From positions 1 through 64,000 of the forward strand of contig JAFWKK010000078.1 in assembly GCA_017514235.1 (NCBI GenBank): a stretch of DNA of 64,000 nt, given 5' to 3'. This DNA comes from Kiritimatiellia bacterium (GTDB taxonomy: Bacteria > Verrucomicrobiota > Kiritimatiellia > RFP12 > UBA1067). Below the pieces are notes generated by a model. It was not told the DNA's origin. It saw only the letters and a program-made list of their open reading frames with translations, and ran no database searches. This document shows, piece after piece, positions 14,701-46,515 of the stretch. The first letter of the stretch is position 1, and the number at the start of each line of letters is the position of its first letter. Both the position numbers and the translations under genes were made by a program.

Positions 14701-15418
14701 CGCCGTCGTCGGAGGAGTCGCTTCGGAATATCCGCCCGGCGTTCGAGCGGAGGAATGCGTGCACGCGTCCGTCCGCCGACTGCCACAGCGTCGGCTGGAT
14801 CACCCCGAAGGGCTTGCCGGTCTTCAGCTTCAGGTCTGGGACGCGCATCTCCGGCGCGGCCCGCCAGGTGCGCCCGTCGTCATCGGAAATGTCCACGAAC
14901 GCCCGCCACGGGCCGCGCTCGCGAGAGGCGGGCGCGAGAAGGCGTCCCGACTTCAGCCGCAGGCACTTGTTCTTTACCGGACCGCGTCCGCCGGAGACGT
15001 CGCCGGGGACTAGTTCCTTAGGCGAACTCCAGGTCTGGCCCTCGTCCCGGCTTTCGGTGACATACGTCTGCCAGTCGCCAATGGGCTTCCCGACCTTGAA
15101 GAAGAGAACGATCCGCCCGTCCCTGCCGCGAAACAGGACTGGGTTCCAATGCGCTACGTCGCGCACCTTGGCGATTTGGCGCGCATTCTCCCATGTCCCG
15201 CCGATGCGCCGCGAACCCCAGACAGCGACATCAGGATTGCCTTCCTTCGTTCCCTGGAACCAGCAGACGAGATACTCGCCCTGGCCCTTGAGGGGAAGGA
15301 CCGTAGAGGCATGGACCTGCCCGTCGACGAACGGCGAGCAGAATTCCTGGATATCCGACGCGTATTCCGCCCGCGCAAGCGAAGCCGCAAAAGCGGCAAG
15401 GAGAATCATCTTTTTCAT
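11711..15418 (-). CDS. Exported triple fusion: sialidase-type propeller, GH28-like beta-helix, DUF1680 (GH127-like)
   Basis: 1235 residues with a signal peptide (MKKMILLAAFAASLARA). Residues 20-350 form a BNR/sialidase-like propeller with four Asp boxes (SRDEGQTW near 123, SDDDGRTW near 178, SSDDGETW near 235, SADDGATW near 289). Residues 350-665 form a right-handed parallel beta-helix resembling GH28 polygalacturonase, with NMDGIH near 512, CWDDTVA near 535 and YGHSAVR near 567 in place of the GH28 NTD, DD and GHG blocks. Residues 665-1235 are a DUF1680 alpha/alpha-toroid, related to beta-L-arabinofuranosidases, beginning PPGSILAEGWLKRQLELQ. Each domain is normally a separate enzyme. It is coupled by ATGA overlaps to the LamG-type gene upstream and gluQ downstream, and probably acts on a pectin-like or arabinose-containing glycan. 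Confidence 0.8.
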   Translation of the reverse strand: MKKMILLAAFAASLARAEYASDIQEFCSPFVDGQVHASTVLPLKGQGEYLVCWFQGTKEGNPDVAVWGSRRIGGTWENARQIAKVRDVAHWNPVLFRGRDGRIVLFFKVGKPIGDWQTYVTESRDEGQTWSSPKELVPGDVSGGRGPVKNKCLRLKSGRLLAPASRERGPWRAFVDISDDDGRTWRAAPEMRVPDLKLKTGKPFGVIQPTLWQSADGRVHAFLRSNAGRIFRSDSSDDGETWSEVADTGLPNNNSGIDLVRASDGRLYMAMNVSDVDWGPRTRLDLRVSADDGATWKPFRTLISRVPGRNAWDGDEYSYPAIIEPRPGIVAITYTFNRKTIRFVEIETRDDTDFIQALLDKGGEVDLPEREYVISRKLMFKSDTSLKLAKGARIRLALGSDCAMAGNADIVRGNENITVDGGVWDMVNVVQSPNPMLNAYANPPLPPDTRPGYVADRFLGNAFFFVNVKNFRFRNLTVRNPVTYACQLAKVSDFAVENIVFDYTTENPAKGNMDGIHLDGGCHHGVIRNVRGTCWDDTVALNANDGVCAIHQGPITDIEIDGIYAEYGHSAVRMLSAGEPVERVSIKNVKGSFFCYGIGFTHYFPERRAVGVFRDIDISHVRMYKAEPPMDPPLPMPYQRHVPLFFYDENVHLENVKVSDFDLAPRLPWSGRKLPPGSILAEGWLKRQLELQRDGLTGHAEELYEDIGLSDWLTGRNRGGQHAWERGPYYARGLLSLAFALDDERLKAKSKRWVDAILSSQRPNGDFGPKNDNWWANMLALQIVRDWYMTSLDRRVLPFLRRYFEYQAKRLPEHPLVADSPWAVARAGDEIEVVMWLHDNQPSDRLVSLMKLLFEQGADWTAYYRTGDEGGLLDADGYQSHIVNFMQGLKTPALRFRLLGEKADAEAYSSVFDPKSWAMQAFGRPDRMLNGSEPLSPLDGTELCAITERILSCREVVSATGNADAMDDLETVAYNTLPSTLSADGKGMRYYNRLNQSQCSLDEKLGYECNSTGDSVCPGPDSGFACCRSNFHAALPKFVESMWMELMWGGYMACAYGDCLLRTPEMTIRESGSYPRGNKVKFEFLDVVHGDWWPIVLRKPRGCRSVAARLNGKPVKWPNGGCFNGPWRKGDVIELEFDMPVREWTGPRDEKSYLRGPLLYSLPIQTTEIPHPGKGIRKDFPKVELKPRSECDFAVKDGARVVGDGVIEVGGCRLVPVADTQLRRSVHPFPEGETP

Positions 15419-18400
15419 TGAACGATAATCGCGAGGCCCTTCCTGGACACTTCAACCTTGACGTTGTTCCCGTCGCGGAAGAAGCGGACGTTCCGCCGCG
15501 CAAGGAGCGCCCCGTCGCCGACCGTCCAGCCAGTGAAGTCAACGTCGCCGAGGGTTGATGCCGAAACCAGCGTGTACACGCCAAGCTGAAGCGCACGGAC
15601 GTCGTCCAACGCAAACGAGACAGTCACCGCGCCGCCGAAATCCACAGCCCCAGACACGGCAAGGGAAGACACCGCGCCGCCCTCCGAAACGCCGACCGCG
15701 AGTGAACCTGCGTCCACGACTTCAAGTGAAGCGCATGTCAAGGAGGCGGCACCGTCAACGGCAATGGCGCCGGCGACAACCTTCATGTCGGATCCGGCGT
15801 CGAATGCGGCTCCGCCATTGAGCGTTATCGAACGAACCGCCGTTGACGGATCGGCGCGCTGGAGCCACTTCTCCTTCAACGCCGCGATGATGCCCTCGCG
15901 CCGTTCGTCGGACAGGACGTCGTTGAACGCCAGGATTTCTGCAACCTTTCCGCCGCCGGCAGAAGAGGCACGGTCTGCGCATAGACAGCCAAACACGCCA
16001 CTGACAACAGGTCGATAGGACAGGACATGGAACCCCTTAGGCAAGACATCGGTGTTAGCCTTTGCCACCCCGTCCACGCTGATCATGTCCTTGTTGCTCG
16101 CAAGGTCGGCTGCATTTCGATTGAGAAGTCCGCAGCCACCAGTGCGTAAGAAGTGGTAATCATAAGAGCTTGAGACAAAGTCGCCATAGTCATCTGCTCC
16201 ATCTGCGCCTAATGCGCGCTGATCGGCACAAACGACGAATATCTCCTTCAACGACGCGAACTGGTCCGGCTGAGGACCAATATATATCGTCATGGCGGCA
16301 GCATCCGCCGCATTGCGGGAACCGAAGTCCACAACGGAGACCACCCTGCCGTTCGGCATTGCCGCCGCCGCAAACGTCGGATGCGCCTGAACATGAGCCT
16401 CGCTGCGCGCACGGTTGACATACTTGTCGCTCTTGAACCAGAGATTCGCGGAGTTCTGGGAATCCCAGACAAGGACATTTGTCGTTGCAGAACCGTCGCC
16501 ATTGTTGACGATGTCGAATGTGAATGACGAAAGATCCGAAGCGTCGAAATGAAGTGCGCATCCCGCATCATCTACCTCAATTTCGCCATGCGGATAGGTG
16601 ATGGCCAGCGCCCCTCCGGCGACCGTCACGTCGTTTGTGGCCACCGCTCCGTCCGTTTCGGACACAACCACCGCGCCGGCGCCTGCCGCCGACATGGAGC
16701 CGTTGCTGCCCGACACCCTTGGAATGACATTGGTCGTTCCCGCGACGGGATTGCCCACCGACGCCTCCACGTCGTCGGCAAAGCGATACTCGTCGACTTG
16801 CGACTCGGCTTCGGGATGGGGCTTGCCCAGCCACTTAGCCATCAGGTATGCTTCGGTCTTGCGGACTTCGTCCAGCGTCAGCGGACGGTCGTAGAGAATC
16901 ACTTCGGCAAGATCGATGTTTCCGGAATAAGGATCGTTCGGATTGTCAAGTGCCAGGTTCGCCAGCAGGTCGCCGCGAATCTTGCCGAGTGAGCCTGAAT
17001 AGGACTGCACCCGCCAATCGAGGGTGTTGAAGGATCCGTCGAAATCGGCGAACCACGGATCGAGCACCCGCCCATCCAGCGCCCAGCGCGCCATCCGGGA
17101 ATTTGGATGCGCATAGGCCAAGCCGAGAAACTGGCCTGAACCATGGACCAGTTCCGCATTGGAGGAACCAAGGCAATAATTGTGGTCATTCGGATTGGTG
17201 TTCACGCGATAGACGACAAACGCCGCATAGGAATCGACCTGATCGCGCGGCTGAAGCCACATCCATGACGCATTGCCCTTGTTTACGTATCCGAACGACA
17301 CGGAATCAAGGTCTGTCGGCGTCTGCCCTGCAATGAGCGACGGGAAGTGTCCGGCGGTCCTGGCGCTGGTATGGTAAAGCGTTCCCGCGTCAACCGCCGG
17401 AATCTCGGCATAATAGTCGCTGGCGCCACGGCGGTCGTTCCAGCGGACGATCTTGGAGGTGTCGCTGCCGCCGCCGTCACAGACGAACGACGAAGTCGCT
17501 GTCGCGTCAAGCCAGAGCATCGGGGACGCAGCCGGTGCATTCGTGGCAATCGCCGAACCGACGCGCTCGACCTTACCGCCGCGGACCTCGACGACGAGAT
17601 TCGTCTGCGCGATGCCGTCCACGAGGAGCGTACCGGCGCCATCCTTGACGATCTTTCCGCAGCCATGCGCGGAGAGGCTGCCGACGCGCGCGACGCGGCC
17701 CGCCGGCACTTCGACCGTCGCCGTGTCGGCATGTACGACCAGCTCTCCGACATCCTTGTCCACATAGTCACGATGCCATTTCTTCATGAGGAACCTGACC
17801 GCCTCCGCGCGCTCGTCGTCCGTCAGGTCGCGGTTGTATACGAGTATCTCGCCCACGCGCCAGCCGCCTGTGCCGTTGACCATCTCGCGTTCGCTGGCGA
17901 TCGTTTTGAATTCCTGTGCCGACGACAACTTGACACTGACGACTGACAGCGAGCCAAGATCCTCCCCGTTGAAGCGCGTCGGGAATATCTTTCGGTTCGA
18001 GCCAGGGCAACCGTTGACCGTAATATCGGCCCGCATCGCCGCATCGGAGCAATACCAGCCAAAGACCGCAGTGCGACCGCCCCCCTGCAGGTAAACGTCC
18101 GGACCCCAGATTCCGCCGAGAAGCGATCCGGAAGACTCTGCCGCGTCTCCGACGGGCACTGTGTTTTGGGCGACGTAAAAGATTTCCTTGGCCATGATGG
18201 TCGTGCTGACCTGGAAAAAGCAATTCGAGGGCGAGTCTTCGGTCGCGCATGTCGCCGGCAGCCCGAAGTCAAGCAGCGGCAGCCCTGTCGTGCTCGTAAC
18301 GGAGGCAAGATATGGCGCACGGGCTGAACCGACGTAGCCGTCCCCGGTCCGCGGCGAGCTTGGAACGTAGCAATAGACGTTGTTGCCGTCGCAGTCGCGC

Positions 18401-19185
18401 CAGGCCGTGACCGCCGTGCGCTTATTGCCCGGGCCATAAGTCTCCTCCCGGGTGTCGGTTCCAGATATCTTCGTCGCATCCAAGTGCAGGACCGAGCCGT
18501 CTGGCAGCGCCGGTTCGAGGGCGGCCTCGTCGACGCCTTTAAGGACAAGCGTGCCGTCATCAACGTAAATCCGCGAATCGGCCCCGGCGGCGTTGTCGAC
18601 CGTAAGCTTGCCGGTACCCATCTTTCTCAGGGCTCCGGAGCGGACGAGCGAGCCGACTTCCGCCGCGATTCCCGGCTCCGGCACGTCGATGGCCATATAC
18701 CCCCACGTGTCAAAGTACTTGACGAAAGGAGAATGCAGCGACGCCGCCTCAAGCACGAGCTTGCCGCGTCCGGCCGTGGACGTCCAGAATCCGCCGAAAC
18801 CGTTCGGGTCCGAGACGGTGATCGTCTGTCCGAATCCCGAATATCCGTCCGAAACGGTGTAAAGCGTAAGCAGCGGATGAAGACCGTCGTCGCAGGCAAG
18901 CGAACCGAACTCCAGTTCGTGAACCGGGGCAGATGCGTAGTAGCCCGAGCTGGGGAAATTGATGACATAGGCGCTTCGGGCCAAACTGTTGCCGCCGTAC
19001 GAAATGTAGGCGCTGTCTTCTGCGCGGTCCGGAGTCCTTTCCGGAACGGCACCGTCGACGCGCCAGACACTTGTGTTGTTCCAGTAGTTGCCGCTGCCGG
19101 CCGTCGTAAGCCAGGTGAAGTCCAGTGCGAATGCCGACGCAACCGCAGTTGCGGCCGACATCATCGTCATCATCTTGCTGGTCAT
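15415..19185 (-). CDS. Large exported protein with three LamG-type modules and a Gly-hydrophobic-Gln C-terminal tail
   Basis: 1256 residues with a signal peptide ending near ATAVASAFA. Three related modules of about 320 residues begin at roughly 235, 560 and 890 (LHLDATK, LWLDATAT, LHFDASD). Each ends with a matching helix-containing block: EILVYNRDLTDDERAE, EVILYDRPLTLDEVRK and EILAFNDVLSDERREG. They look like concanavalin/LamG-type carbohydrate-binding folds joined by beta-helix-like linkers. The protein stops with RKGLAIIVQ, a tail shared with two other large exported proteins here. The start at 19185 is preceded by AAGGAAAGGAA 8 bases away; an upstream ATG at 19227 overlaps the preceding stop but lacks a Shine-Dalgarno and would spoil the signal peptide. 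No catalytic site is seen; a surface adhesin or substrate-capture role is inferred. Confidence 0.75.
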   Translation of the reverse strand: MTSKMMTMMSAATAVASAFALDFTWLTTAGSGNYWNNTSVWRVDGAVPERTPDRAEDSAYISYGGNSLARSAYVINFPSSGYYASAPVHELEFGSLACDDGLHPLLTLYTVSDGYSGFGQTITVSDPNGFGGFWTSTAGRGKLVLEAASLHSPFVKYFDTWGYMAIDVPEPGIAAEVGSLVRSGALRKMGTGKLTVDNAAGADSRIYVDDGTLVLKGVDEAALEPALPDGSVLHLDATKISGTDTREETYGPGNKRTAVTAWRDCDGNNVYCYVPSSPRTGDGYVGSARAPYLASVTSTTGLPLLDFGLPATCATEDSPSNCFFQVSTTIMAKEIFYVAQNTVPVGDAAESSGSLLGGIWGPDVYLQGGGRTAVFGWYCSDAAMRADITVNGCPGSNRKIFPTRFNGEDLGSLSVVSVKLSSAQEFKTIASEREMVNGTGGWRVGEILVYNRDLTDDERAEAVRFLMKKWHRDYVDKDVGELVVHADTATVEVPAGRVARVGSLSAHGCGKIVKDGAGTLLVDGIAQTNLVVEVRGGKVERVGSAIATNAPAASPMLWLDATATSSFVCDGGGSDTSKIVRWNDRRGASDYYAEIPAVDAGTLYHTSARTAGHFPSLIAGQTPTDLDSVSFGYVNKGNASWMWLQPRDQVDSYAAFVVYRVNTNPNDHNYCLGSSNAELVHGSGQFLGLAYAHPNSRMARWALDGRVLDPWFADFDGSFNTLDWRVQSYSGSLGKIRGDLLANLALDNPNDPYSGNIDLAEVILYDRPLTLDEVRKTEAYLMAKWLGKPHPEAESQVDEYRFADDVEASVGNPVAGTTNVIPRVSGSNGSMSAAGAGAVVVSETDGAVATNDVTVAGGALAITYPHGEIEVDDAGCALHFDASDLSSFTFDIVNNGDGSATTNVLVWDSQNSANLWFKSDKYVNRARSEAHVQAHPTFAAAAMPNGRVVSVVDFGSRNAADAAAMTIYIGPQPDQFASLKEIFVVCADQRALGADGADDYGDFVSSSYDYHFLRTGGCGLLNRNAADLASNKDMISVDGVAKANTDVLPKGFHVLSYRPVVSGVFGCLCADRASSAGGGKVAEILAFNDVLSDERREGIIAALKEKWLQRADPSTAVRSITLNGGAAFDAGSDMKVVAGAIAVDGAASLTCASLEVVDAGSLAVGVSEGGAVSSLAVSGAVDFGGAVTVSFALDDVRALQLGVYTLVSASTLGDVDFTGWTVGDGALLARRNVRFFRDGNNVKVEVSRKGLAIIVQ

Positions 19186-19223
19186 TGCGCCATTCCTTTC
19201 CTTTGGTCGTTGATCGCGACAAG

Positions 19224-26200: not shown

Positions 26201-29200
26201 TCACTTGCCGACGCGTGAGATTTCGATGCGGTCGAGGTAGACCGCCTTGACGGCACCATGGCCGCCGCCGTTGGTGAAGCGTCCGCTGCCGAACTCGAAC
26301 ATGTCGCCCGGCGCGGGGCGGAACGTGCCGAGGTCGTACCACTCGTAGCCCTCGGAGCGGATGTCTTCCGCCTTGGGCCCTATGTCCAGCTTGGGCTTGC
26401 CGTCCACGACGTTCACGAGCGCCTGGAACGCCTCGCCCTTGCCGCCCGGCACCTTCTCGACGCGCACGTGCGCGCGCACCCGGTAGTCGACGCCCGGATC
26501 GTAGGCGACGTTGTTGAAGAAGAGCGTAATGCAGGGCCGTGGCTGCACGGGCAGCGCCATCGCCGCCCGTCCGCCGGTTGCCGCCGGATCGTCCACAAGT
26601 CTTCCCCAGCTGCCCGGATGGCTGACGAGCACGTCGTCCGGACCGGCGAACGCGCAGTCGCTCCCCTTGGCCGGACGCCGCGACCGGGAGGCGTGCCGCC
26701 AGGTGCTGGTGGGGTTGGTGTAGCCAAAGGCGATGCCGGTCTTGGGGTGGAGGCGCTGTTCCCTGGCGATCCAGTCGAGCATCTCCGCATAAAGGCCGGA
26801 CACCTTTTCGAAGGTGTCGAATTTTTCGGGGTGTCGGGTCACCCAGACGTTCTTCGAGGTGGCGGCGGCCCGGTCGAGGATGGTCGCGATCGTGCCCGCC
26901 TTGCCGGACTGCACGTTCGCGAGGGCACCGGGGTCGTCCTTCGCCGCCCGCTCGCCTTCGCGCCAGAGCGCGAGCGCTTCGTTCAGCAGGCTGTCGGTGT
27001 AGACGTTGGGACGGTCGTTCTCGAAAATGCCCAGGCGACGAGGGTTGATGGGCGCGTTCGCAAGGGCGAGGGTAAACTTGTCCGAGACGGCGCGGGCGTA
27101 CGGCGCGGCCGGGCCATAGTAGCCCTCGAAGAAGCGCTGCAGGAGCGGCTCTGCCGGAAGGTCGGGGTTCCACATCCACTTGGAGACGAGCCAGCACTTG
27201 AGCGCGAAGAAGTCGGCGTGCATGCACGTGCCCTCCTCGAACAGCCATCTCACGCCGTGATCGCGGAAGAACTTCACGTTCTGCTGCATCGAGTTGAGGT
27301 TGGGGAAGGCGTGGAACGACCAGCGGAAGTTGGTGATGTAGTCCCAGAAGTAGAGGTTGTCGGTGAGGGCGCTCCACGCCACGAAGTCGTCAAGGAACGC
27401 CGCATTCGTCGCCGTCCCGGCAGCGGAGAGCGGAAGCGAGTGGTCGCACTCGATGTTGCAGAAGCAGATCGCCACGTTCTTCGCAGGACGCGTCTTTTTC
27501 GGCGGCTTGCGCGTGTACTGGTAGGCGAGCGTCTCGCAGGTGAGGCCCGGGCGGATCTTCTCGATGCGCTCGGCGACGGCGTTGACGAACCGGATGAGCG
27601 TACCGGCGTGCGAACCCTCTTCCTCGTCGATGGCGCGGCATTTGGCGCACGTGCAGTAGTTCTCCCAGTCGGCCTGGCTCACCCCGTAGAACTTCGCCTG
27701 GGGATCGGCGTCGATCTTGACCACGAGATTGGAGACCATGATCTCGAGAACATCCGGATTGGTGAGGCAGAGCTGCGTCTCGCCGTTGCGCCTCACCCCG
27801 CCGATCTCGCTGTAGTACTCGGGGTGGTCCTTGAAGTACTTCTCGGGCGGCACAAGCCGGAGGAAGGTGTGGCACAGCCCCGCGCCGCCCACGAACAGCC
27901 CCGCGTCGGCGAAGCCGCCGTACTTCTCCTGCAGCCGGATCTTGAACGCGCCGTTCTGGCGGCAGTGCACGAAGAACTCGCGCTTGGGCTCCACGTTCTG
28001 TCCGCTCCAGTCGTTGTCGCCGCACCAGTAGAAGTCGGTATAGCGCATCTCGAACGCGGGCCGCTGCGTGTCGTAGAGCGAATCGGGAACCTTCAGCACG
28101 CCGGTCTTGGGCACAACCGTCCGCCAGGGGCTGAACCACCCGATGCCGCCATAGGTCTCGAGCAACTCGTTTACGCCGTAGAGCATCCCGCGCCGCCCGC
28201 CGCGCACCACCACGTCCGACTTCTCCGTGCGCAGGTTGAAGCCCTCGTCGCCGAGCGCGAGATGCGGCTCGGGCTCGATCAGCCGCACGTGGCACGGCGC
28301 CTCGCCCTTGCCCTCGCAGATCGCCAGCTCGACGCCGGTGAGTTCCTTCGTCCATTTCCGCAGTTCGCTCGCGGCATGGCGTTGCCAGACGGTTGGCTTC
28401 GCCGGGATCACGATGTCGTATTTCGGCGCCCTGCCGCGCTCGGCGATGACAAGGTCCGATGCCGGGGAACGCAGGGGCCGCCCCACCTCGACGCACCGCT
28501 GGAGCTCGTCGTCGAGCGCCTCCAGCCTGTCGGCCACATACACCATGCAGTTCACCCAGTCGCTGCCCTTGCGCGAATCGAAGTAGGTGGGGATCGTGCC
28601 GTCCGCGCGCTGGTGCCGCGTGACGTTATCGGCGAGAGCCTTGGCCTTTTCAAGGTAGAGCCTGTCCCCCGTAGCCTTGTACGCAGCAGCGAACGCGCCA
28701 ATCATGTCACCCATCGACGCGTCAATCGGCGTGTAGTAGTCGTACTGCTCAAGCGCCGTCGGCATCTTCCAGTTCTTCCAGTCCATGTTGTGGATCGGAT
28801 CGCTCCACACGACAAACTGGTCTTCGCACCAGTCCACCATCTCGCATGCCTCGGCCTTGCGCCCCATAGCGAAGAGGCGCAGGGCAGTATCGACTGCAAC
28901 TCCCTTCTGGAGGTTTCTGTACGGCGGCATCGGATCCATGTCCTCGAACTGTCCGTCCCAGTTCCACGTCTTCGCCGGGCCGTCCAGCACGTATGCGAAC
29001 GCACGGTCGCGCGCCGCCGAAAACGCCGCGTCGCCAGTCGCCGCGAACACCCTGTCGAACATCCCGAGCAGATAGCGGTTCGGCACAAGCCGGTTGGCGC
29101 GGACGGGCGAGCCGTCCTTCTCCAGAACCTTGAGCGGCCATGTGCCGTCCTCGCCCTGTCGTTTCATGTACGTACGGGCGATGGCAATCGCGGCGTCGCG

Positions 29201-30091
29201 GTACTTCGCCTCGCCCGTCGCCTCCGCGAGATCAAAGTATGCGTTCGCCGCGTGTGCCGGATAGCCAAGCATGTTCTGCCCCGCATTCTTGACGGCGACG
29301 TCGCGGCGGTCACCCCAGTACGTCGGCGGAAAATGCGCAAGAGGCGCGCCCTCCGGCTGGCTGTGCGAAATGAGCCAGTCGGCCATCTTGCGCGCGATGG
29401 CAAGGGCATCGTCGTGAACGGGCGAGCCGCCCGCTCTACTGCAAGGCATGCCCATTGTAGAACGGGCAGCTTGCCCGTTCGATGCCTTGGCGTGGCGGCA
29501 GAGCGCGCGGATCATCGAGCTGAGGATTTTCGCCGGATAGCAGTAGAGGTCGTAACCCTTAGGCGGATCATCGCTCGTCTTCCACCCCTGCACCTGCGGC
29601 ATGTTGTAAACCGCCGCATACACGCGCCGCGCCGCGTCCGCGTAGTCGCCAGTTCCGCTCGGATAGGGCCCCTTGAAGAACGCGGCGCGATAGGTTTCGC
29701 GCGTTCCCGCCTCGCCCAGCTCGCGGCCGTTCGCGTCGACGCCGACGGCCTTCACGCTCACGTACCCCGGCGGGATGTCGCCCCACACCGGCGTCAGTGC
29801 CGCCCACGGGTTGTCCGCCGTGAAGACGTGCGTCTTGCCGCCCGCCTTTTCGGTGACGGTGAAGCGGTACTTCGCCGCGCCCTCCACAGCCTTGAAGTCG
29901 AACGCGGGCGGATGGATGAACGCCTTCGACTTGATGTTCCAGAACGGCGTCTTGCCGGGCACGCCGGGATGCACGACCGTCAAGCTCTCGCGCCGCGCCT
30001 GTTCGTTCAGGGCCGCCCAGTCCGGCGCGGCCGTGATGGCCAACGCGGCGACCGCGCTCGCCGCGCAAAGGAATCCTTTTCTGCTCTTCAT
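26201..30091 (-). CDS. Exported fusion: alpha/alpha-toroid domain plus DUF4838 glycosidase-like domains
   Basis: 1296 residues with a signal peptide (MKSRKGFLCAASAVAALAITAAP). Residues 30-540 resemble the barrel of D-glucuronyl epimerase or heparinase-type proteins (RVYAAVYNMPQVQGW, NLQKGVAVDTALRLFAMGRK, ADNVTRHQRADGTIPTYFD). From about 560 a GH67/GH20-type N-terminal domain starts (IVIPAKPTVWQRHAASELRKWTKELTGVEL, RGGRRGMLYGVNELLE). The DUF4838 barrel follows (DHPEYYSEIGG, FYGVSQADWENYCTCAKCRAID, VAICFCNIECDHSLPL), then a C-terminal carbohydrate-binding-like beta domain. Such DUF4838 proteins are predicted uronidase- or hexosaminidase-like enzymes. A palindromic element (29442-29489) is inserted in frame around residue 215. 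The ATG at 30091 gives the better signal peptide than 30106. Confidence 0.72.
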   Translation of the reverse strand: MKSRKGFLCAASAVAALAITAAPDWAALNEQARRESLTVVHPGVPGKTPFWNIKSKAFIHPPAFDFKAVEGAAKYRFTVTEKAGGKTHVFTADNPWAALTPVWGDIPPGYVSVKAVGVDANGRELGEAGTRETYRAAFFKGPYPSGTGDYADAARRVYAAVYNMPQVQGWKTSDDPPKGYDLYCYPAKILSSMIRALCRHAKASNGQAARSTMGMPCSRAGGSPVHDDALAIARKMADWLISHSQPEGAPLAHFPPTYWGDRRDVAVKNAGQNMLGYPAHAANAYFDLAEATGEAKYRDAAIAIARTYMKRQGEDGTWPLKVLEKDGSPVRANRLVPNRYLLGMFDRVFAATGDAAFSAARDRAFAYVLDGPAKTWNWDGQFEDMDPMPPYRNLQKGVAVDTALRLFAMGRKAEACEMVDWCEDQFVVWSDPIHNMDWKNWKMPTALEQYDYYTPIDASMGDMIGAFAAAYKATGDRLYLEKAKALADNVTRHQRADGTIPTYFDSRKGSDWVNCMVYVADRLEALDDELQRCVEVGRPLRSPASDLVIAERGRAPKYDIVIPAKPTVWQRHAASELRKWTKELTGVELAICEGKGEAPCHVRLIEPEPHLALGDEGFNLRTEKSDVVVRGGRRGMLYGVNELLETYGGIGWFSPWRTVVPKTGVLKVPDSLYDTQRPAFEMRYTDFYWCGDNDWSGQNVEPKREFFVHCRQNGAFKIRLQEKYGGFADAGLFVGGAGLCHTFLRLVPPEKYFKDHPEYYSEIGGVRRNGETQLCLTNPDVLEIMVSNLVVKIDADPQAKFYGVSQADWENYCTCAKCRAIDEEEGSHAGTLIRFVNAVAERIEKIRPGLTCETLAYQYTRKPPKKTRPAKNVAICFCNIECDHSLPLSAAGTATNAAFLDDFVAWSALTDNLYFWDYITNFRWSFHAFPNLNSMQQNVKFFRDHGVRWLFEEGTCMHADFFALKCWLVSKWMWNPDLPAEPLLQRFFEGYYGPAAPYARAVSDKFTLALANAPINPRRLGIFENDRPNVYTDSLLNEALALWREGERAAKDDPGALANVQSGKAGTIATILDRAAATSKNVWVTRHPEKFDTFEKVSGLYAEMLDWIAREQRLHPKTGIAFGYTNPTSTWRHASRSRRPAKGSDCAFAGPDDVLVSHPGSWGRLVDDPAATGGRAAMALPVQPRPCITLFFNNVAYDPGVDYRVRAHVRVEKVPGGKGEAFQALVNVVDGKPKLDIGPKAEDIRSEGYEWYDLGTFRPAPGDMFEFGSGRFTNGGGHGAVKAVYLDRIEISRVGK
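29442..29489. repeat. Nested palindromic element inside the DUF4838-fusion gene
   Basis: Outer arms CAAGGCAT (29442-29449) and ATGCCTTG (29482-29489) enclose inner arms AACGGGCA (29461-29468) and TGCCCGTT (29472-29479) with a 3-base loop. It adds roughly 20 residues (GQAARSTMGMPCSRAG) between otherwise toroid-like sequence and keeps the frame open. It has the shape of a REP-like or small mobile palindrome. Confidence 0.5.
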
Positions 30092-30114
30092 AACAATGCC
30101 TGTCATGACAATGA

Positions 30115-32769
30115 CTACCGAATGTAGATGACCGTGCCCTTCCGCACCCAGCTCTTCAGGACGAACTCGATATGCGGGGCCAGAGACGGGCCTTGTGCAC
30201 GTTCGCGGGTGACGAAACCGAAGTTCCAGTTGTCGTTGCTGTTCCTTGTCGCGGTGTGGAGCGTCAGGTGCGTCTCGTTGGCGGCAAGCGCCTCTCGGAC
30301 GGCGGCGCTGATGTCAAACGCAATATCCTTGCCCGCCGTGAACCGGTCGGTGCCGGAGATGATGTACGTGCCCAGCAGAGGTTCCGACTCGCGCACGGGA
30401 TCGGGATGACTTTCGCGCGCCAGCGGCGTCGCCCACTGGTTTCCGAACATGTCGTTCCACGTCGGTGCGTTCGCATCGGTCCACTCGCGGTCTGGGCACT
30501 TGAGCACATAGAGCCGGGAGCCGCTGACGCAGTCCCCGTCGTCGCCAGTCACCGTCAGATGAAGCGTTGCGGAGGAGATCCTCGCCGGCACGCGGGAAAG
30601 GTCGAATCGGATAAGGCCTTCACGCACGCCGCCTGAACCTTCGCTGGAGACGTACTTTTCGACGATGGAGGCCTCAGTTCCGTGTTTCGTGTCGCCATTG
30701 CTGCCGTTCTGCACGTAGGTGTCGGCGCAGGCGAAAAGCGTCATCCGGGCATCGAGCGTCACCGCCTTCGTGACGCTTGCGGTCGAAGTGTCCGACAGCG
30801 TTGCGGTGATTTCGTACTCGTATTCGACGTTCGGCTCTGCGGTCGCGTCAAGGCATGTCGCCTCGGAAATGCCGTTCGCGACGGCCGCCCATCCTTCTCC
30901 GTCGCGGCGGCGCACGGTGTAGGTCGCGCCGCTCAAGTCAGACGGCGACCACGTGAGGCGCAGCGCGGGCGATTCGCCGCTCGTGTCGAGGGATGCGACG
31001 ACGCGCGCGCCGAATCGCGCATCGGGGTCAGGGAAGACAAGTTCCGCCGGTCTGGCGGCGTCTGCGCCTTTGTAGAAGTTGTGCCAGGCCTTGTTGGAGA
31101 AGAGTCCGAGCGTCAGCATCTTGCCTTCTGCGGCGGCGGCACGCGCAGCGGCGGTGACGTCTGCTTCGAAATACCGCGACGCGCTCTTGTTCTGTTCCAG
31201 TCGGAAAGTCGCAACCTCCCCGTCAATCGTCGTTGCCGCCGTGATGGCCGCCGGTTGCGGGAACGTCGGACTGGCCGTGTTCCAGGTGAAGTTCGTCTCG
31301 TTCCATCTGCCGGTCGTCCACGCCGCGACGCGCAGGGCTCCGCCGTCCGCCTTGATGGTGCCGTCGTTCTTGACGCGGAAGCGCACGAACGGCGCGTTTT
31401 CAAGACCGTTCACGTCAAAGAGCATCGTCGCGTACTGCACGCTGGAGCCGCTGCATCCAATCTGGACGATGTTGGTCCACTGCCCGTTGTAGTAAGTTTT
31501 ATCCTTCGAGCCGTTGCTGATGAACGTTTCCTGGACGGGCTTGCGTGTCACCAGCGCGGCGTCAACAGTCGGCGTAATCAAAAGGCGCGGGTGACACCAC
31601 TCGTCCGGGTGTTCCTTGGAAAGGGGGAAAAAGCACTTCGCGTTTCCAGATTGGTTCATCGTGATGTGGATGGACATCGTCGTCTTGCCGGCGGACAGAG
31701 TTTGGTTGACAAGCGGAGCCAGATCGACGGTGCAGAATCGGTTGGTGTAGACGGAGGGGATGCGCACGGCGTTCGCCGGCGTTTCAGCAGACCATGCCGC
31801 TCCGGGCGTGACGCCCGCCTGCGTAGATGCGTTGTTCCAAGTGAGGGTTGATCCGCTCCAGGAGTCTTTGTCCATCAACTGGAATTGCACCTGGCTGCCG
31901 GGTGTGTGGTTCGGCTGCGTTGGGGACATTCGCATCAGGAAGACTGCCGAATCCACGGATTGCGCACCGATGCCGGAAAGGTCGAACTTGAAGAATCCCT
32001 CTCGGAAGTTTTGCTGGACGAAAATGCTGGTGCTGCCGCCATAGGCTGTGTCTGCGGTGCTACCAGCACAGTTGATGAACGTATCCTCCGTCGGAATCAG
32101 TGTCAGCGTGTCCGGGTTCGCTGTCGTTGCGCCCTGGAACATCAGCCTGGGACGCAGCGATGAATCCGCCGCATCCTTGGAGTGCAATCCCAATGGAGTG
32201 GTATCGCCGCCCTCGTCGGAATCCCACATGGTGACGGCGTGGAGCGCCAAGCGCCCCGTCCGCACAGCCGCCGCCTTCACCGCCTCGGTGAGATCGACCT
32301 CCTGCCATGTGCCCTGCGAGCCGGCGGGGATGACGACCGTTCCCGCAATCGTCGCGTCGTTCGTCGCGACGACAGCGGCCGGCACGGTGCGGAACTCATC
32401 GGGCAGCGAGTTCCACGTGAGTGTATTTTCGTTCCAACGATCGTTGCGCATGACCTGGAAGTAAACTGGCCATTTCGCGCCCGATGTGGTGCCGCACTGC
32501 GACACGTAAAACCTGAACTTCGCGGCGGTGACGTTCGCAAGATCGGAGACGTCGAACATCAGGCAGCCTTCGCGTCCGTTGCCGATGGTGATGCCTTTCG
32601 AGTCGCCATACGCAATGTTCTGGCGAGCAGCGGCAGAGTCGACATAGGTGTCCTGCACCGGCAGGCGCTCCGTCCAAGCGTCATCGGCCCGCGCCGCGCC
32701 GTGGATGGCTGCGGCAACCGCGCAGACGAACAGCAACCGTTCGAGTCCCGATGGTGTTATGCCTGACAT
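30115..32769 (-). CDS. Large exported DNRLRE-repeat protein with a Gly-hydrophobic-Arg C-terminal tail
   Basis: 884 residues with a signal peptide (LLFVCAVAAAIHGAARA). Four DNRLRE/CBM96-like beta-sandwich domains are recognisable by their openings: VQDTYVDSAAARQNIAYG, TEDTFINCAGSTADTAYG, VQETFISNGSKDKTYYNG and CADTYVQNGSNGDTKHG. A fibronectin type III-like segment lies between the third and fourth (ALRLTWSPSDLSGATYTVRRRDG). It ends WVRKGTVIYIR, like two other exported giants in this window. There is no catalytic motif; glycan binding or surface display is inferred. GAAAGGA lies 9-10 bases before the ATG at 32769, so I prefer it to 32787. It is the first gene of operon B. Confidence 0.78.
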   Translation of the reverse strand: MSGITPSGLERLLFVCAVAAAIHGAARADDAWTERLPVQDTYVDSAAARQNIAYGDSKGITIGNGREGCLMFDVSDLANVTAAKFRFYVSQCGTTSGAKWPVYFQVMRNDRWNENTLTWNSLPDEFRTVPAAVVATNDATIAGTVVIPAGSQGTWQEVDLTEAVKAAAVRTGRLALHAVTMWDSDEGGDTTPLGLHSKDAADSSLRPRLMFQGATTANPDTLTLIPTEDTFINCAGSTADTAYGGSTSIFVQQNFREGFFKFDLSGIGAQSVDSAVFLMRMSPTQPNHTPGSQVQFQLMDKDSWSGSTLTWNNASTQAGVTPGAAWSAETPANAVRIPSVYTNRFCTVDLAPLVNQTLSAGKTTMSIHITMNQSGNAKCFFPLSKEHPDEWCHPRLLITPTVDAALVTRKPVQETFISNGSKDKTYYNGQWTNIVQIGCSGSSVQYATMLFDVNGLENAPFVRFRVKNDGTIKADGGALRVAAWTTGRWNETNFTWNTASPTFPQPAAITAATTIDGEVATFRLEQNKSASRYFEADVTAAARAAAAEGKMLTLGLFSNKAWHNFYKGADAARPAELVFPDPDARFGARVVASLDTSGESPALRLTWSPSDLSGATYTVRRRDGEGWAAVANGISEATCLDATAEPNVEYEYEITATLSDTSTASVTKAVTLDARMTLFACADTYVQNGSNGDTKHGTEASIVEKYVSSEGSGGVREGLIRFDLSRVPARISSATLHLTVTGDDGDCVSGSRLYVLKCPDREWTDANAPTWNDMFGNQWATPLARESHPDPVRESEPLLGTYIISGTDRFTAGKDIAFDISAAVREALAANETHLTLHTATRNSNDNWNFGFVTRERAQGPSLAPHIEFVLKSWVRKGTVIYIR

Positions 32770-32822
32770 TTTGGTGCATCCTTTCATGTTCGGGATAGTT
32801 CCCCACTACTTTAAATGCGTTT

Positions 32823-32834
32823 ATTATACCACAT
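32823..32834 (-). promoter_or_regulatory. Operon B promoter, motif ATGTGGTATAAT
   Basis: On the minus strand ATGTGG runs into TATAAT, giving an extended -10 (TG-G-TATAAT). Predicted transcription starts near 32816, leaving a leader of about 47 bases to the DNRLRE gene. The motif matches the operon A promoter and that of the aldolase/symporter operon. Confidence 0.6.
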
Positions 32835-32866
32835 CCCCCCCGCAAAGGCGTTGCATTTTGAGAAGT

Positions 32867-32893
32867 TGTTATTTCGCATTATGCGAAATAACA
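32867..32893. promoter_or_regulatory. 27-bp perfect palindrome, probable XylR-type operator
   Basis: TGTTATTTCGCAT and ATGCGAAATAACA are perfect 13-base arms around a single central T. It lies between the divergent -10 elements of operon B (32823-32828) and the regulator gene (32917-32922), just upstream of the regulator's -35 position. Position and symmetry fit a dimeric regulator controlling both directions. Confidence 0.6.
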
Positions 32894-32913
32894 GAAGCAG
32901 TCGCACCCAATTG

Positions 32914-32922
32914 TGCTATAAT
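32914..32922 (+). promoter_or_regulatory. Extended -10 (TGCTATAAT), leaderless start of the XylR-type gene
   Basis: TATAAT at 32917-32922 is followed after 6 bases by the ATG at 32929. Transcription should therefore start at or next to the A of the ATG. No Shine-Dalgarno sequence exists in the gap (GGGCAC). Confidence 0.6.
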
Positions 32923-32928
32923 GGGCAC

Positions 32929-34023
32929 ATGAAAACGATTCTCTTCTTCAAACGACCGCGGCAACGGATAACGGATTCGATACAGTTGCTCGCACCGCTG
33001 TCGACAAAATGCTACGTGCAGGCAATCGACTCCGCAACAACGGATGCGGAGGCGGCGGAACTGCTCCGGTTCTGGAAGCCAGACGGCTGCATCGTCAACA
33101 ACGATCGCCTCTCCGCACGCCTTTTCAACGGCATCCCTACAATCTTCCTCCACCGCGATCCCGCGAAGCTCCCGCGCAATGCCGACTGGGGGGCGTACGA
33201 CGAGAACGCCATCGCCGAACTCGCCGCCAGGGAGCTCCTGCCGCTGGGCTGCGCATCGTTTGTCTATGTACCCGCCCCTGCAGCGGAGCATTGGGATTCC
33301 GCCCGGCGTACCGCGTTCATCCACGCACTGAAGATGAACGGACAGAGCTGCTCCGTCGTCCGTCATCCGCATACACGCAGCGCCGTCCGAATCCAGACTT
33401 CGCTCGGACGCGCCCTGACCGCCCTGCCACGTCCGATCGGCGTGTTCGCCGCATGCGACACAGTCGCGGAGCAGGTCGTCCACGCCTGCACGCACGCCGG
33501 ACTCTCCATACCGGACGAAGTCGCCATCGTCGGCGTCGACAACAACACGGGCATCTGCGAAATGACGCGGCCGACCCTTACCAGCATCAATTGCGAAGGG
33601 AATTTCTCCCGGGCATTCTATCTCGACCTCATCGAATCCCGCATCGGCAATCCACGGTTGCCGCGCCGTCTGCTTTCCGTCCAGCCGATGGGGATAGTCC
33701 GCCGCGCCTCGACGCAACGCTTCCAGAAATTCGACGCCGTCGCCGCCGCCGCCTGCGAAGCGATCCGCACGCGGGTCTGCGAGGGCATCACCGCGCGCGA
33801 GGTGGCCGCCACCTTCCCCTGCTCGCGGCGAATGGCTGAGATCCGCTTTCGCGCGGCAACGGGGCAGTCAATCCTCGAGCGCATCCGCGATGAGCGCCGC
33901 ACCGCCGCCCAGAAGGCGGAGGGGGTCCGACCGCTTTCGCCGAAGCTTCTCGCCGCGCAGTTCGGCTATTCCGCCGTCAGCTCCGTCTACCGTCTCCTTC
34001 GGCAGAAGGATCCCGTCAAATGA
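32929..34023 (+). CDS. XylR-type transcriptional regulator (LacI-like sensor plus AraC HTH)
   Basis: 364 residues. The N-terminal 265 form a periplasmic-binding/LacI-like sensor, with GVFAACDTVAEQVVHAC and the hallmark IPDEVAIVGVDNNTGICEMTRPTLTSI near 215. The C-terminal 90 are an AraC-type helix-turn-helix region (EGITAREVAATFPCSRRMAEIRFRAATGQSILERI). This is the inverse domain order of LacI and matches XylR of E. coli. It should bind a sugar released from the substrate of operon B and control both the operon and itself through the palindrome at 32867. The frame is open upstream to 32815, but the ATG at 32929 sits at the normal N-terminus. Confidence 0.85.
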   Translation: MKTILFFKRPRQRITDSIQLLAPLSTKCYVQAIDSATTDAEAAELLRFWKPDGCIVNNDRLSARLFNGIPTIFLHRDPAKLPRNADWGAYDENAIAELAARELLPLGCASFVYVPAPAAEHWDSARRTAFIHALKMNGQSCSVVRHPHTRSAVRIQTSLGRALTALPRPIGVFAACDTVAEQVVHACTHAGLSIPDEVAIVGVDNNTGICEMTRPTLTSINCEGNFSRAFYLDLIESRIGNPRLPRRLLSVQPMGIVRRASTQRFQKFDAVAAAACEAIRTRVCEGITAREVAATFPCSRRMAEIRFRAATGQSILERIRDERRTAAQKAEGVRPLSPKLLAAQFGYSAVSSVYRLLRQKDPVK

Positions 34024-39542: not shown

Positions 39543-39549
39543 ACTCCCC

Positions 39550-40422: not shown

Positions 40423-40459
40423 CGCGTCGGCCGCCCTGCGCAAATTCACGGAGAGACGG

Positions 40460-43596: not shown

Positions 43597-43608
43597 GTTC
43601 AACGCGAC

Positions 43609-46515
43609 CTACCGAACGATCAATACGGCGCCTATGCGCTTGCGCAGCTGCAACGTGTTCCCCTTCACCGCGGCATACCATTCCTGCGGCTCCGTCTCTA
43701 CGCCGTTGTCGACAAAGACAAGCCGCGGAGTCTCAGACGAGTAGAGAAGCCCGCCGTTGGTCTTGACCTCCGCAACCGTGAACCTTGTCTCGTCCGATGC
43801 CGCGAGCGCCGCTGCGCCAAGCACCTTGACGACCGCGTACTCTCCCAATGTCATCCGTTGGTTGACCGTGAGATGGTCGCCGGCCAAGAGATCCGTCGCG
43901 AAGCACTCAACGGCGTTGGTGACGGTATAGTAGCCAAATGACGTCGTACCGCAGCCGCGGATGAACGGCACGGTGACAGCCACACTGGCCGTGTTGAATG
44001 AAATCATCGCACCTTTGTGGAGAATGATGCCGCTTCCTTGCGGCATGCCGCACTGGGGCGCCTGCGGATTCAAGAAGGACAGGATGCCTTCCACAACTTC
44101 CGTATCGCCGCGATACGTATTTGCGCCGTACATGTTAAGTCGTGGCGCACCAACCTTGCGGAAGCCCGTCCAACCGGTTTCAGGCTGATCCTCAAGCTCA
44201 ACGGGGCAGGTGTAGGCGCCCTGGCGATTTCCGGACTCGATCGTAACCACGGTGTCGTTGCCATATCCCCAGCCAGGACACGTGACGACCACCCCTCGAT
44301 TGGTATGCCCCACGTCATCATAATCTACAAACGCCGTTGCACCTTCGCCAGAGCCGGAAATCGTGACCGTCGGCGGCCCCATGAACACGTCAGCCGCATA
44401 GGCAGCATCTGACATCGGTAGCACAATCGACTTGATTCGCTTGCCCGCTCCTGGCGACTGGAAAGCGTATTCCATGTTGACATCCGCGGACAGGCTCGAT
44501 GTATCGACGGTAAACCCTTTTTCGTAAACGGTAACGCGTGTCGGCTGTCGGGACGTGTCGTTCCAGGCCGTACCGTTGGCAAACCAGGGGGTCGCAGAAA
44601 GCTTGCGGATAATGCCGCCATTCAGGTTCACCTTCATCTGGCACCCGTCACCGCCGTCGAGACGGTAGAGGTTCGGAGAGGAAAGCATCGCACCGTCGTT
44701 TATGTTCAAAGTGAAGTCGCCTCCGGCGTTCGTCCAGAACACACGCATGTACTTGCCGACATGGAGAACCGTCCCAGTCCCCATAAGCGTGACGTCCGCC
44801 GCGCCGGCTTGGTTGCGGACGGCATTGCGTCCGAAGTCCAGCGTCTGCAACGCCTCCATCTTCGCGCCGTCTGAGAGACAGGCGGAGAACCGACCGCCCG
44901 TTACGGCGGCAAATTCCACATGCGTGGCCGATTGCGACGGCGTACCAACAAACTCGACTTCGCCCCCTGCACGGACGGCAAGCGTCGCCGTGCCCTGATA
45001 GCCCCAGAACGACCTGATCGAATTGTCTGCAATTTTCGATCCATCAACCTTCAGTTTCCCGTTCGACACCGACACATATCCGTAGGCACCCGAATTGTAA
45101 CCGAGAGAATCAAAGTTGTAGTTGTAGATAGGATAGTAGCAATTGGCACCAGCGATGACAAGCGCACCATATCCAGAGTGACCGACAGCCATTGAAATGT
45201 TCGAGACGACCGATCCTCCATTCACAGTCAAGCGTCCATACTTGGAGTGGTTCGCCGATATGTCACTGCCAAGATAGAAACGGCAACTCGCACCGCCCTC
45301 GGCATTTGTGTCGCATGAGGCAAACGTGTTCTCAAAGGCGACATCCGCCGGCCAGCTCTTTTCGCCCGCCGCATAGAGCCCTGTCGGGGCATCCCATACG
45401 ACTTCGGTATCCTTAAACGTGATGCTGCCCGCAGTCGCGTCGATCGCGCCGCTGGCAATCGTCTTGCCACCGTCGAACACGGTGCGTCCGCTTCTGCTCG
45501 TGATCTTCAACAACTCGTTGGTGCCTTTCAGAGTAAGAAGCCCATTGTTAGCGAACTGCGCGTTCGCGATGGCATTGCGCCCCGTCACGTTTCCGGCAAG
45601 CGTCAGGTGCGAACCGTTCTGTTTCGGAGTGACGGTCAGCTGCTTGTGCAGTTCCACCGGACCTGCCCACACGTTCTGAACATCCGACGAACCTGATTCG
45701 TCGTCCTCGATGTACGCCGAACTGTCTCCGTCCACAATGAGTTTCCATTGTATATGCGTGTCTGTGTTGCGCAGGCGCAGAATCGGCTTGGCATAGCCCT
45801 TGGAACTCAAGCAGTCCTTCAGCGTAAGCGTATTGTTCGTCGAACCGCCCCCCATCGCATTGTAGCGCGGGTAGAAGGTTCCGCCCTCGACAACGATATG
45901 CCCCGGATCGTCTGTCGAACCGTTTTTCTTGAACTGACCTCTCGGCCAGTAGAATACGGAATTCTGGCCGCTAATGCCAGCGTTGATCGTCAACGTGTGC
46001 CCTTCGAGATTGAAGGTGCTTGCGCTGCTGTCTGGGCAGCCGATTTGAACAGAGTTGCAGATTGAGGCATCGGCGGTAAGCGTCACATTGCCGAGCAGCG
46101 AATTGATTGGGCCTCCGCCGGTGCGGCGGATCGCGCCGCCGCCTTTTACACCAGTACCGGCGATGAAGATCGGCGTAGAGGCGATGTTCCCGGCTCCAGT
46201 GCTTTCTGACGTCAAATCCAATGTCGCACCGGATGACACCGTGATCTTCGTCGGCGTACCGAAGTTCTGCAAATACTGGGCGGCGAGCGTGCCTTGCTGT
46301 ACCTCGATCTCGCCGGCGAACGAAGATGTTGCCGTACCGTACTTGATCGTCGCCTTGTAGGCACCCGTCTTCACCACCTTCGACGCCCGTGCCAGCGCGA
46401 CGTTGTCGGTGAAGGTGATGTCTTCCGTAGGGGCGTCTATCGTCAGGACGCCATCCGCAACAGCTGCGGAACATGCGGCCAAGGCCGCCATTATGGGAAT
46501 GACCGTTCTTTTCAT
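43609..46515 (-). CDS. Large exported beta-helix (autotransporter-repeat) protein with a Gly-hydrophobic-Arg tail
   Basis: 968 residues with a signal peptide (MKRTVIPIMAALAACSAAVA). The body is rich in Gly, Thr, Ser and Asn with repeated short strands (GTLAAQYLQNFGTPTKITVSSGATLDL, GANTYRGDTEVVEGILSF), the pattern of autotransporter-associated beta strand repeats. No C-terminal outer-membrane barrel is visible; instead it ends LRKRIGAVLIVR. The tail resembles those of the LamG-type and DNRLRE proteins. The ATG overlaps the upstream stop as ATGA. Role inferred: surface adhesin or scaffold of operon C. Confidence 0.75.
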   Translation of the reverse strand: MKRTVIPIMAALAACSAAVADGVLTIDAPTEDITFTDNVALARASKVVKTGAYKATIKYGTATSSFAGEIEVQQGTLAAQYLQNFGTPTKITVSSGATLDLTSESTGAGNIASTPIFIAGTGVKGGGAIRRTGGGPINSLLGNVTLTADASICNSVQIGCPDSSASTFNLEGHTLTINAGISGQNSVFYWPRGQFKKNGSTDDPGHIVVEGGTFYPRYNAMGGGSTNNTLTLKDCLSSKGYAKPILRLRNTDTHIQWKLIVDGDSSAYIEDDESGSSDVQNVWAGPVELHKQLTVTPKQNGSHLTLAGNVTGRNAIANAQFANNGLLTLKGTNELLKITSRSGRTVFDGGKTIASGAIDATAGSITFKDTEVVWDAPTGLYAAGEKSWPADVAFENTFASCDTNAEGGASCRFYLGSDISANHSKYGRLTVNGGSVVSNISMAVGHSGYGALVIAGANCYYPIYNYNFDSLGYNSGAYGYVSVSNGKLKVDGSKIADNSIRSFWGYQGTATLAVRAGGEVEFVGTPSQSATHVEFAAVTGGRFSACLSDGAKMEALQTLDFGRNAVRNQAGAADVTLMGTGTVLHVGKYMRVFWTNAGGDFTLNINDGAMLSSPNLYRLDGGDGCQMKVNLNGGIIRKLSATPWFANGTAWNDTSRQPTRVTVYEKGFTVDTSSLSADVNMEYAFQSPGAGKRIKSIVLPMSDAAYAADVFMGPPTVTISGSGEGATAFVDYDDVGHTNRGVVVTCPGWGYGNDTVVTIESGNRQGAYTCPVELEDQPETGWTGFRKVGAPRLNMYGANTYRGDTEVVEGILSFLNPQAPQCGMPQGSGIILHKGAMISFNTASVAVTVPFIRGCGTTSFGYYTVTNAVECFATDLLAGDHLTVNQRMTLGEYAVVKVLGAAALAASDETRFTVAEVKTNGGLLYSSETPRLVFVDNGVETEPQEWYAAVKGNTLQLRKRIGAVLIVR

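Follow-up and report, generated by a model that had tools for sequence, protein, structure and literature searches.

Why should large exported proteins with dissimilar bodies end in almost the same few residues? The question is raised by a stretch of 64,000 nucleotides from a Kiritimatiellia bacterium (assembly GCA_017514235.1, contig JAFWKK010000078.1, positions 1 to 64,000; hereafter the window), a member of a class that the NCBI taxonomy places within the Planctomycetes–Verrucomicrobia–Chlamydiae (PVC) group. An earlier note on this DNA had drawn attention to three genes whose products finish in a short tail (basic residues, glycine, a hydrophobic run and a terminal arginine or glutamine) and had suggested an undescribed sorting, secretion or anchoring signal. 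We found that the tail recurs in Kiritimatiellia as the motif [K/N/R/P]-G-[T/L]-h-h-x-[I/V/L]-R-stop, of about eight residues (h, hydrophobic). It is probably a dedicated, minimal C-terminal sorting signal of this class, a putative one whose recognition in the periplasm would have some likeness to that of type IX signals.

Three window proteins share a C-terminal tail

All three genes are encoded by the minus strand and end as the earlier note had described. Tail protein 1 (1,270 residues; 15415..19227) ends SRKGLAIIVQ, with the tail and stop codon at 15415..15447. Tail protein 2 (890 residues; 30115..32787), an exported protein with DNRLRE/CBM96 domains, ends KSWVRKGTVIYIR, its last residues being VRKGTVIYIR; tail and stop occupy 30115..30156, beyond the DNRLRE fold. 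Tail protein 3 (968 residues; 43609..46515), an exported protein with an autotransporter-type beta-strand repeat, ends RKRIGAVLIVR, with tail and stop at 43609..43644. Scored with a held-out matrix, built from 18 tails of other genomes only, the three tails reached 16.0, 17.4 and 12.5 bits, respectively. A DNA pattern fitting two of the three tails matched twice in the window, compared with 0.18 matches expected, and only 1 of 100 shuffles reached two.

A signal peptide was called on proteins 2 and 3 by a hydrophobicity rule; the N terminus of protein 1, MTSKMMTMMSAATAVASAFA, does not pass this rule and resembles a signal peptide by eye. The bodies of proteins 2 and 3 do differ: DNRLRE/CBM96 domains were matched in four stretches of the former (Pfam, NCBIfam) and the strand repeat TIGR02601 in the latter (NCBIfam, E 5e-7). 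The label 'LamG' for protein 1 was not verified, as Pfam gave no match at E 0.01. None of the 13 remaining window proteins that pass the signal-peptide rule carries a tail, as had been claimed, and gene order in the window agrees with one tail per glycan operon.

Recurrence and residue profile of the tail

A 48-residue protein query from one tail region matched only itself in the window's genome, so we used DNA patterns instead. In that genome (3.96 Mb, 82 contigs), a degenerate tail pattern gave nine matches, compared with five for its backward control. Of the nine, seven close frames that stay open through all 508 upstream codons examined and that encode proteins of differing make-up; the frames closed by the remaining two are 102 and 11 codons long. 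Across 59 related genomes, a similar pattern, with TGG allowed at the stop position and counts added by hand, gave 78 matches in 33 genomes versus 30 in the control. At 29 further loci from relatives, 19 matches end a frame that is open over the whole upstream stretch examined and 10 do not; a tail-ending frame was present in 19 of 20 stretches taken from other genomes.

We then read 76 tails as a logo, which is partly imposed because the search patterns fix several positions: the glycine, hydrophobic second bases and a CGN codon for arginine, plus lysine or asparagine at −8 in the first pattern or threonine at −6 in the later one. Glycine occupies −7 in all 76. The residue before it is lysine in 24, asparagine in 10, arginine in 9 and alanine or proline in 6 each; the terminal plan first described is thus slightly amended, in that the preceding residue is frequently, not invariably, basic. 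Position −6 is threonine (48) or leucine (11), −5 mainly leucine or valine, −4 isoleucine, leucine, methionine or phenylalanine, −3 variable and frequently isoleucine, and −2 isoleucine, valine or leucine. The last residue is arginine in 72 tails, lysine in two, glutamine in one and histidine in one. Threonine after the glycine and the final arginine are thus the strongest marks of the motif. Proline at −9, imposed by neither pattern, occurs in 23 tails, and proline-rich linkers precede several of them (PPPKGTVIMMR, PPPARKGLLMVVR, PPPIGTMMLIR and PPPLGTKLMIR). Possible variant tails were also seen, namely IPRGMSVTVH (L050:4417-7092), MVKGIKLVVF (L061:12174-14975) and EKKGLIISVK (L055:6144-8114), so the last residue is perhaps not absolutely fixed.

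The tail is linked to exported proteins

To relate the tail to export, we examined the window together with 20 stretches of its own genome, 457 kb or about one-tenth of the genome, of which six stretches had been chosen for holding a tail and 14 were unselected. A simple longest-open-reading-frame rule gave 321 genes. Signal peptides were called on 94 of their products, on 93 by the hydrophobicity rule and on one, from the window, by eye. With a threshold of 10 bits, a nine-position matrix found tails in 14 of the 94 signal-peptide proteins and in none of the 227 others, and the held-out matrix gave the same counts (P 1.6e-8). The nine-position matrix at the same threshold found nothing in 1,562 shadow open reading frames or at 4,700 internal decoy cut points. 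With signal peptides called by the rule alone, the counts were 13 of 93 versus 1 of 228 (P 6e-7), the one being window protein 1. The possibility that such tails are equally frequent in cytoplasmic proteins was thereby answered in the negative for the sampled part of the window's genome. The association was also present in the 14 unselected stretches, where tails were found in 3 of 49 signal-peptide proteins and in 0 of 156 others (P 0.013). When the requirement for arginine was dropped and only glycine at −7 was kept, 13 of 21 signal-peptide proteins ended in arginine, compared with 3 of 22 others. Tail proteins are large, with a median of 860 residues versus 510 for other signal-peptide proteins. 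In a second genome, G160 (family f17), a sample read at 8 bits had tails on 7 of 75 signal-peptide proteins.

The tail is a separate module

The bodies that carry the tail include DNRLRE glycan-binding modules, LamG domains, autotransporter-type beta-helices and choice-of-anchor Q domains. If the tail were simply the last strand of an unrelated domain in each case, it should lie within the fold, and this was not what we found. In protein 2, the NF033679 match (NCBIfam) stops at residue 283 of 299, 16 residues before the C terminus. An AlphaFold2 model of the last domain of this protein places the last strand at residues 208-213 of 226 and the tail, residues 214-226, in coil (mean predicted local distance difference test score (pLDDT) 69); in a beta-helix carrier from another contig (mean pLDDT 82), the AlphaFold model is confident to residue 320 and gives the last six residues, 325-330, as coil with pLDDT below 50. 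Both models were built on shallow alignments of five sequences, and in both the tail is predicted to be a flexible appendage beyond the folded body. None of the best Pfam stretches of ten tail proteins extended into the tail. Structural searches with the modelled bodies, as distinct from the tails, found that the last domain of protein 2 resembles the glycan-binding modules 8wab and 7vbo and that the beta-helix carrier weakly resembles autotransporter passengers (best E 0.004).

In choice-of-anchor Q proteins, the tail can occupy the position of an anchor. In G160, the domain is followed by an 11-residue tail in two proteins (domain at residues 1145-1188 of 1199 and, just under the family cut-off, 476-521 of 532). 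We searched the choice_anch_Q family in 24 genomes and read 84 places (83 distinct) among the matches listed, not blind. In tail-type genomes, 13 of 47 places end within 9-13 residues in a tail (one ending in histidine), whereas in PEP-CTERM-rich genomes none of 37 does. Many of the latter end in a DSDGDG-rich sequence and an FYxVxV-like end; in genomes of family f11 (G271, G356 and G104; L241-L259 and L218), choice-of-anchor Q proteins often share a DSDGDG-rich C terminus of the FY[KR]VEV type.

The tail is distributed inversely to PEP-CTERM

We next asked how the tail is distributed across the class, using the pattern G-T-h-h-x-[I/V/M]-R-stop in 145 genomes, which gave 160 matches versus 34 in the control. 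PEP-CTERM proteins were counted in the same genomes with TIGR02595 at E up to 1, some genomes holding at least 54. The number of tails correlates inversely with the number of PEP-CTERM proteins (rank correlation −0.34 over genomes and −0.36 over 44 family means). Divided at a cut of seven PEP-CTERM hits, which was chosen after the counts had been seen, the 70 PEP-CTERM-poor genomes (7 or fewer) had 144 matches versus 13 in the control, and the 75 PEP-CTERM-rich genomes (8 or more) had 16 versus 21. At least three such tails were found in 18 of the 70 poor genomes, spanning 12 families, and in none of the 75 rich ones (P 6e-7); by a hand count of the 44 families, 12 of 29 PEP-CTERM-poor families and none of 15 PEP-CTERM-rich families include a tail-rich genome (P 0.003), both P values overstating independence because the genomes are related. 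In a PEP-CTERM-rich family of the same order as the window's genome (f3), none of 49 signal-peptide proteins in stretches of three genomes has the tail, and several end like IPEPTALALLALGVAGVALRRR. Thus, the distribution of the tail is inverse to that of PEP-CTERM.

In a search of the whole phylum, the first pattern was near background outside the class, as judged by eye. Eleven loci related to a tail-bearing beta-helix protein belong to metagenome-assembled genomes whose titles read Kiritimatiellae, Verrucomicrobia or uncultured bacterium; the titles of two of these genomes give goat ileum and roe-deer omasum as their source, so that the named relatives of tail carriers include ruminant-gut genomes.

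The tail also proved distinct from PEP-CTERM in its make-up, as had been proposed. A Pro-Glu-Pro motif was found in none of the 76 tails. The best 19-residue hydropathy mean was 0.0-1.2 in 14 tails and 1.18-1.72 in eight PEP-CTERMs, ranges that touch, and the tail lacks a membrane-length stretch. It ends in a single arginine at a fixed distance (72 of 76), not in a basic cluster of the PEP-CTERM kind. The NCBIfam PEP-CTERM models matched neither the three window proteins (E up to 1) nor the C termini of nine tail proteins. PEP-CTERM matches over the cut-off nevertheless occur in the same genomes, at least one in each of the eight tail-type genomes searched and five in that of the window, which also has an exosortase.

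Candidate machinery

The earlier note had asked whether a dedicated processing or secretion gene co-occurs with the tail, and we found no such gene. We searched for SprA_N, PorV, exosortase and Omp85, none of which tracks the tail, and also considered recurring neighbours of tail genes. SprA_N was found in 0 of 58 genomes and PorV in 0 of 24 over the cut-off (one weak match in G329, 24.3 of 27 bits), but the control genomes gave no match to either model, so absence is not proven. With nothing over the cut-off for either, type IX secretion as such was set aside.

An exosortase family member is present in 55 of the 58 genomes, that of the window included. As it occurs with and without tails, and is found in the PEP-CTERM-rich family f3 as well, we rejected exosortase as a dedicated partner. 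The sole match in the window's genome is a 513-residue frame (L051:9064-10605; G000:C34:81064-82605) that passes TIGR02602; its EpsI-like C-terminal region is below the cut-off, and the genes beside it resemble, by eye, those for polysaccharides. It keeps, by eye, the motifs Cys-x-Gly, Asn-x-x-Arg and His-x-x-x-Gly, which are given as conserved in exosortases in PMC1569441.

For Omp85, a single match was obtained in 9 of 12 tail-type genomes, and between one and seven in 12 PEP-CTERM-type genomes. The extra matches in tail-type genomes are a weak one in G160, a 153-residue fragment in G329 and a 764-residue frame with 50.5 bits in G304. A dedicated extra Omp85 was rejected, since the number of Omp85 matches does not track the tail. 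The BamA of the window's genome ends GYDF.

A putative C-terminal sorting signal

By its computed properties, the tail is recurrent, exactly C-terminal, carried by signal-peptide proteins in the window's genome, modular, free of a membrane helix and inverse in distribution to PEP-CTERM. It stands at the exact C terminus of unrelated exported proteins and is absent from others in about one-tenth of the genome, and on these grounds we file it under the known kind of C-terminal surface sorting signal. The proposal of an undescribed sorting, secretion or anchoring signal is thus supported by the tail's restriction to exported proteins in the window's genome, its modularity and its unlikeness to PEP-CTERM; actual sorting, secretion or anchoring by the tail is putative.

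How might such a signal work? Sec would export the tail proteins by means of their signal peptides, whether called by rule or by eye. As the tail is far below membrane-spanning length, the proteins would be expected to be released into the periplasm rather than retained in the inner membrane. The fixed length, the fixed glycine and the nearly fixed terminal arginine of the tail, whose consensus is [K/N/R/P]-G-T-[L/V]-[I/L/M/F]-x-[I/V/L]-R-COOH, suggest that an outer-membrane receptor may read it as an added beta-strand together with the free carboxyl end. The receptor would then move the protein across the membrane or fix it on the surface. Its cargo would be large glycan-binding or adhesin-like proteins, often encoded beside glycan-operon regulators and DUF4838 genes. 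More tentatively, Kiritimatiellia may possess an undescribed outer-membrane route for secretion or anchoring, in which cargo is marked by a free C-terminal beta-strand some eight residues long (G-T-h-h-x-h-Arg-COOH). This mark would replace PEP-CTERM in at least 12 families, and its receptor would not be recognisable type IX machinery and would be followed neither by exosortase nor by an additional Omp85. Given a dedicated receptor, the secretion route itself would be new. If it is a sorting signal, the tail would mark, on a very rough scaling from three in 273 kb of unselected sequence, about forty proteins of the window's genome, several of them in glycan operons, and would indicate a secretion or anchoring route of which we found no description. 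Sorting signals are often what identifies the surface proteins of Gram-negative bacteria, and none of the curated models reported here detects this one. For the tail, NCBIfam gave no sorting model at E up to 1 in the three window proteins, at E up to 5 in nine tail proteins or at E up to 0.5 in eight proteins of G160, under HMMER filters that discard most matches above E 0.1. Open-access literature on surface sorting in Kiritimatiellia and Verrucomicrobia and on short C-terminal signals likewise had no description of such a tail in the titles or the starts of abstracts among the matches listed.

Among known systems, the closest precedent, by analogy, is type IX secretion. Like the tail, the type A C-terminal domain (CTD; PF18962/TIGR04183) is a helix-free C-terminal signal found on varied surface proteins that also have a signal peptide; for the tail, the signal peptide was called by rule on 13 of 14 proteins of the window's genome, with one by eye, and on five of nine elsewhere. 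Unlike the CTD, the tail is only about 8-13 residues long and has no immunoglobulin-like domain. No type IX sorting domain was found in the C-terminal 300 residues (one 228-residue protein being searched whole) of ten tail proteins with Pfam at E up to 1 or of nine with NCBIfam at E up to 5. PMC10202324 states that type A CTDs need their last 13 residues and conserved lysines of motif E, that the last 22 residues of HBP35 suffice for export of green fluorescent protein and that type IX signals are restricted to Bacteroidota. PEP-CTERM is also like the tail in being a multi-copy C-terminal tag of varied exported proteins with arginine near the end, and it is common in the tail-less sister families; it is unlike the tail in the ways already described. 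Membership of type IX or PEP-CTERM is not claimed because their defining features failed. GlyGly-CTERM, MYXO-CTERM and LPXTG signals share with the tail a C-terminal motif, a hydrophobic segment and a basic end. These three systems depend on a membrane-spanning segment and on the membrane or a membrane-bound protease, and the tail, in contrast, has no such segment. An autotransporter (type V) C-terminal barrel was not found either, the C-terminal matches being to carbohydrate-binding module, LamG, strand-repeat or anchor domains.

Alternative explanations

Could the tail instead be a shortened PEP-CTERM, still handled by exosortase, in which the proline linker, the Gly-Thr-hydrophobic start and the terminal arginine were kept while the helix shrank to about five residues? 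Exosortase is nearly universal in the 58 genomes and the window's copy appears intact in its motifs, tail-rich genomes hold few PEP-CTERM proteins, and the proline at −9, with some tails reading PPPxGT or xPGT, would fit such a descent. This explanation is nonetheless unlikely, given the missing membrane-length stretch (with the touching hydropathy ranges given above), the silence of the PEP-CTERM models on nine tail-protein ends (under the same HMMER filters) and the sample of family f3, which has exosortase and no tail on its 49 signal-peptide proteins. PEP-CTERM proteins moreover coexist with tails in all eight tail-type genomes searched and could alone account for the exosortase. A second known machine, the beta-barrel assembly machinery (BAM), recognises a C-terminal beta-signal that, like the tail, has a glycine and an alternating hydrophobic strand, so the tail could be such a signal, with BamA inserting or threading the proteins. 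The order G-x-x-h-x-h followed by arginine shares its alternation with G-x-x-[aromatic]-x-[aromatic], and the single Omp85 match in most tail-type genomes would agree with use of the ordinary complex. But the last residue of the tail is arginine in 72 of 76 cases, not aromatic, and the window genome's own BamA ends in phenylalanine, a sign that the classical form is retained beside the tail. A search of the bodies revealed no barrel; one G160 protein (L119:12765-14297) passes the TIGR01414 cut-off, but over positions 2-70 of 432 only, taken to be the stretch before the barrel. We therefore regard a BAM signal, too, as improbable.

The remaining two alternatives assign no secretion role to the tail. 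It might be a donor strand or docking peptide that assembles cargo on a shared surface scaffold, as a short hydrophobic strand at a free end and the presence of one or two carriers per neighbourhood would allow; with no scaffold candidate identified, we consider this quite unlikely. It might also be purely structural, closing beta-rich exported proteins as their last strand or as a cap, and hold no sorting information. Carriers with recognised domains are indeed beta-rich, the alternation of the tail is strand-like, and models built on five sequences leave room for packing of the tail in the whole protein. Yet a near-identical short sequence follows unrelated domains, beyond both the predicted folds and the DNRLRE and choice_anch_Q matches, and is absent from the 49 signal-peptide proteins sampled in f3, which together make a cap very unlikely.

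The interpretation that we favour, a dedicated sorting signal, has its own difficulties, and several observations weigh against it. To the post hoc PEP-CTERM cut, the relatedness of the genomes and the shallow alignments behind both structural models must be added that 52 of the 70 PEP-CTERM-poor genomes fall below three tails by the narrow Gly-Thr pattern, so that a low PEP-CTERM number is no predictor of tails. Four of nine complete tail proteins from other genomes fail the signal-peptide rule; two are frames of 118 and 121 residues, and the starts of the other two, of 633 and 784 residues, are maybe misplaced. Of the 256 G160 proteins that lack a signal peptide, 3 also score at least 8 bits; two of these are truncated where a stretch ends. 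The choice_anch_Q comparison does not demonstrate a swap of ends on one domain, because 28 of the 34 other places in tail-type genomes run past the stretch read, six end otherwise, and none of the 37 places in PEP-CTERM-rich genomes was seen to be followed by a PEP-CTERM. Nor did the searches for SprA_N, PorV, exosortase and Omp85 yield a partner gene.

Tail genes in glycan operons

The genes around the tails suggest the setting in which these proteins act. In the window, a DUF4838 protein with a GH127-like region (26201..30106, minus strand) lies directly downstream of tail protein 2, after an 8-bp gap, and a divergent regulator of the LacI/XylR type with a Peripla_BP_3 domain (32815..34023, plus strand) adjoins the same gene on its other side. 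Families that recur within three genes of tail genes, as judged from one to six scanned members of each, are DUF4838, a family that includes a GH39 member, and regulators of the GntR and LacI/XylR types. These look like glycan-operon company, so a neighbouring gene was rejected as the sorter; their recurrence agrees with tail proteins serving glycan operons as the surface component that binds glycans. For DUF4838 (PF16126), seven of eight family members in the sample lie within three genes of a tail gene, and the family stands directly downstream of the tail gene in the window and in L053, L054 and L062 (the L054 tail protein has its start cut and ends in lysine). We regard DUF4838 with a tail gene as a candidate glycan-operon pairing in the window's genome and G160. 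The DUF4838 loci beside tails are, in addition to that of the window (26201-30106), L053:9662-11953, L054:1836-3980, L062:6050-8101, L119:9036-12719 and L123:14538-17027. Antisense to the window's DUF4838 gene runs a 1,289-residue open frame (26258-30127, plus strand), which is probably a shadow of high-GC codon use, its third-position GC being 0.62 versus 0.87.

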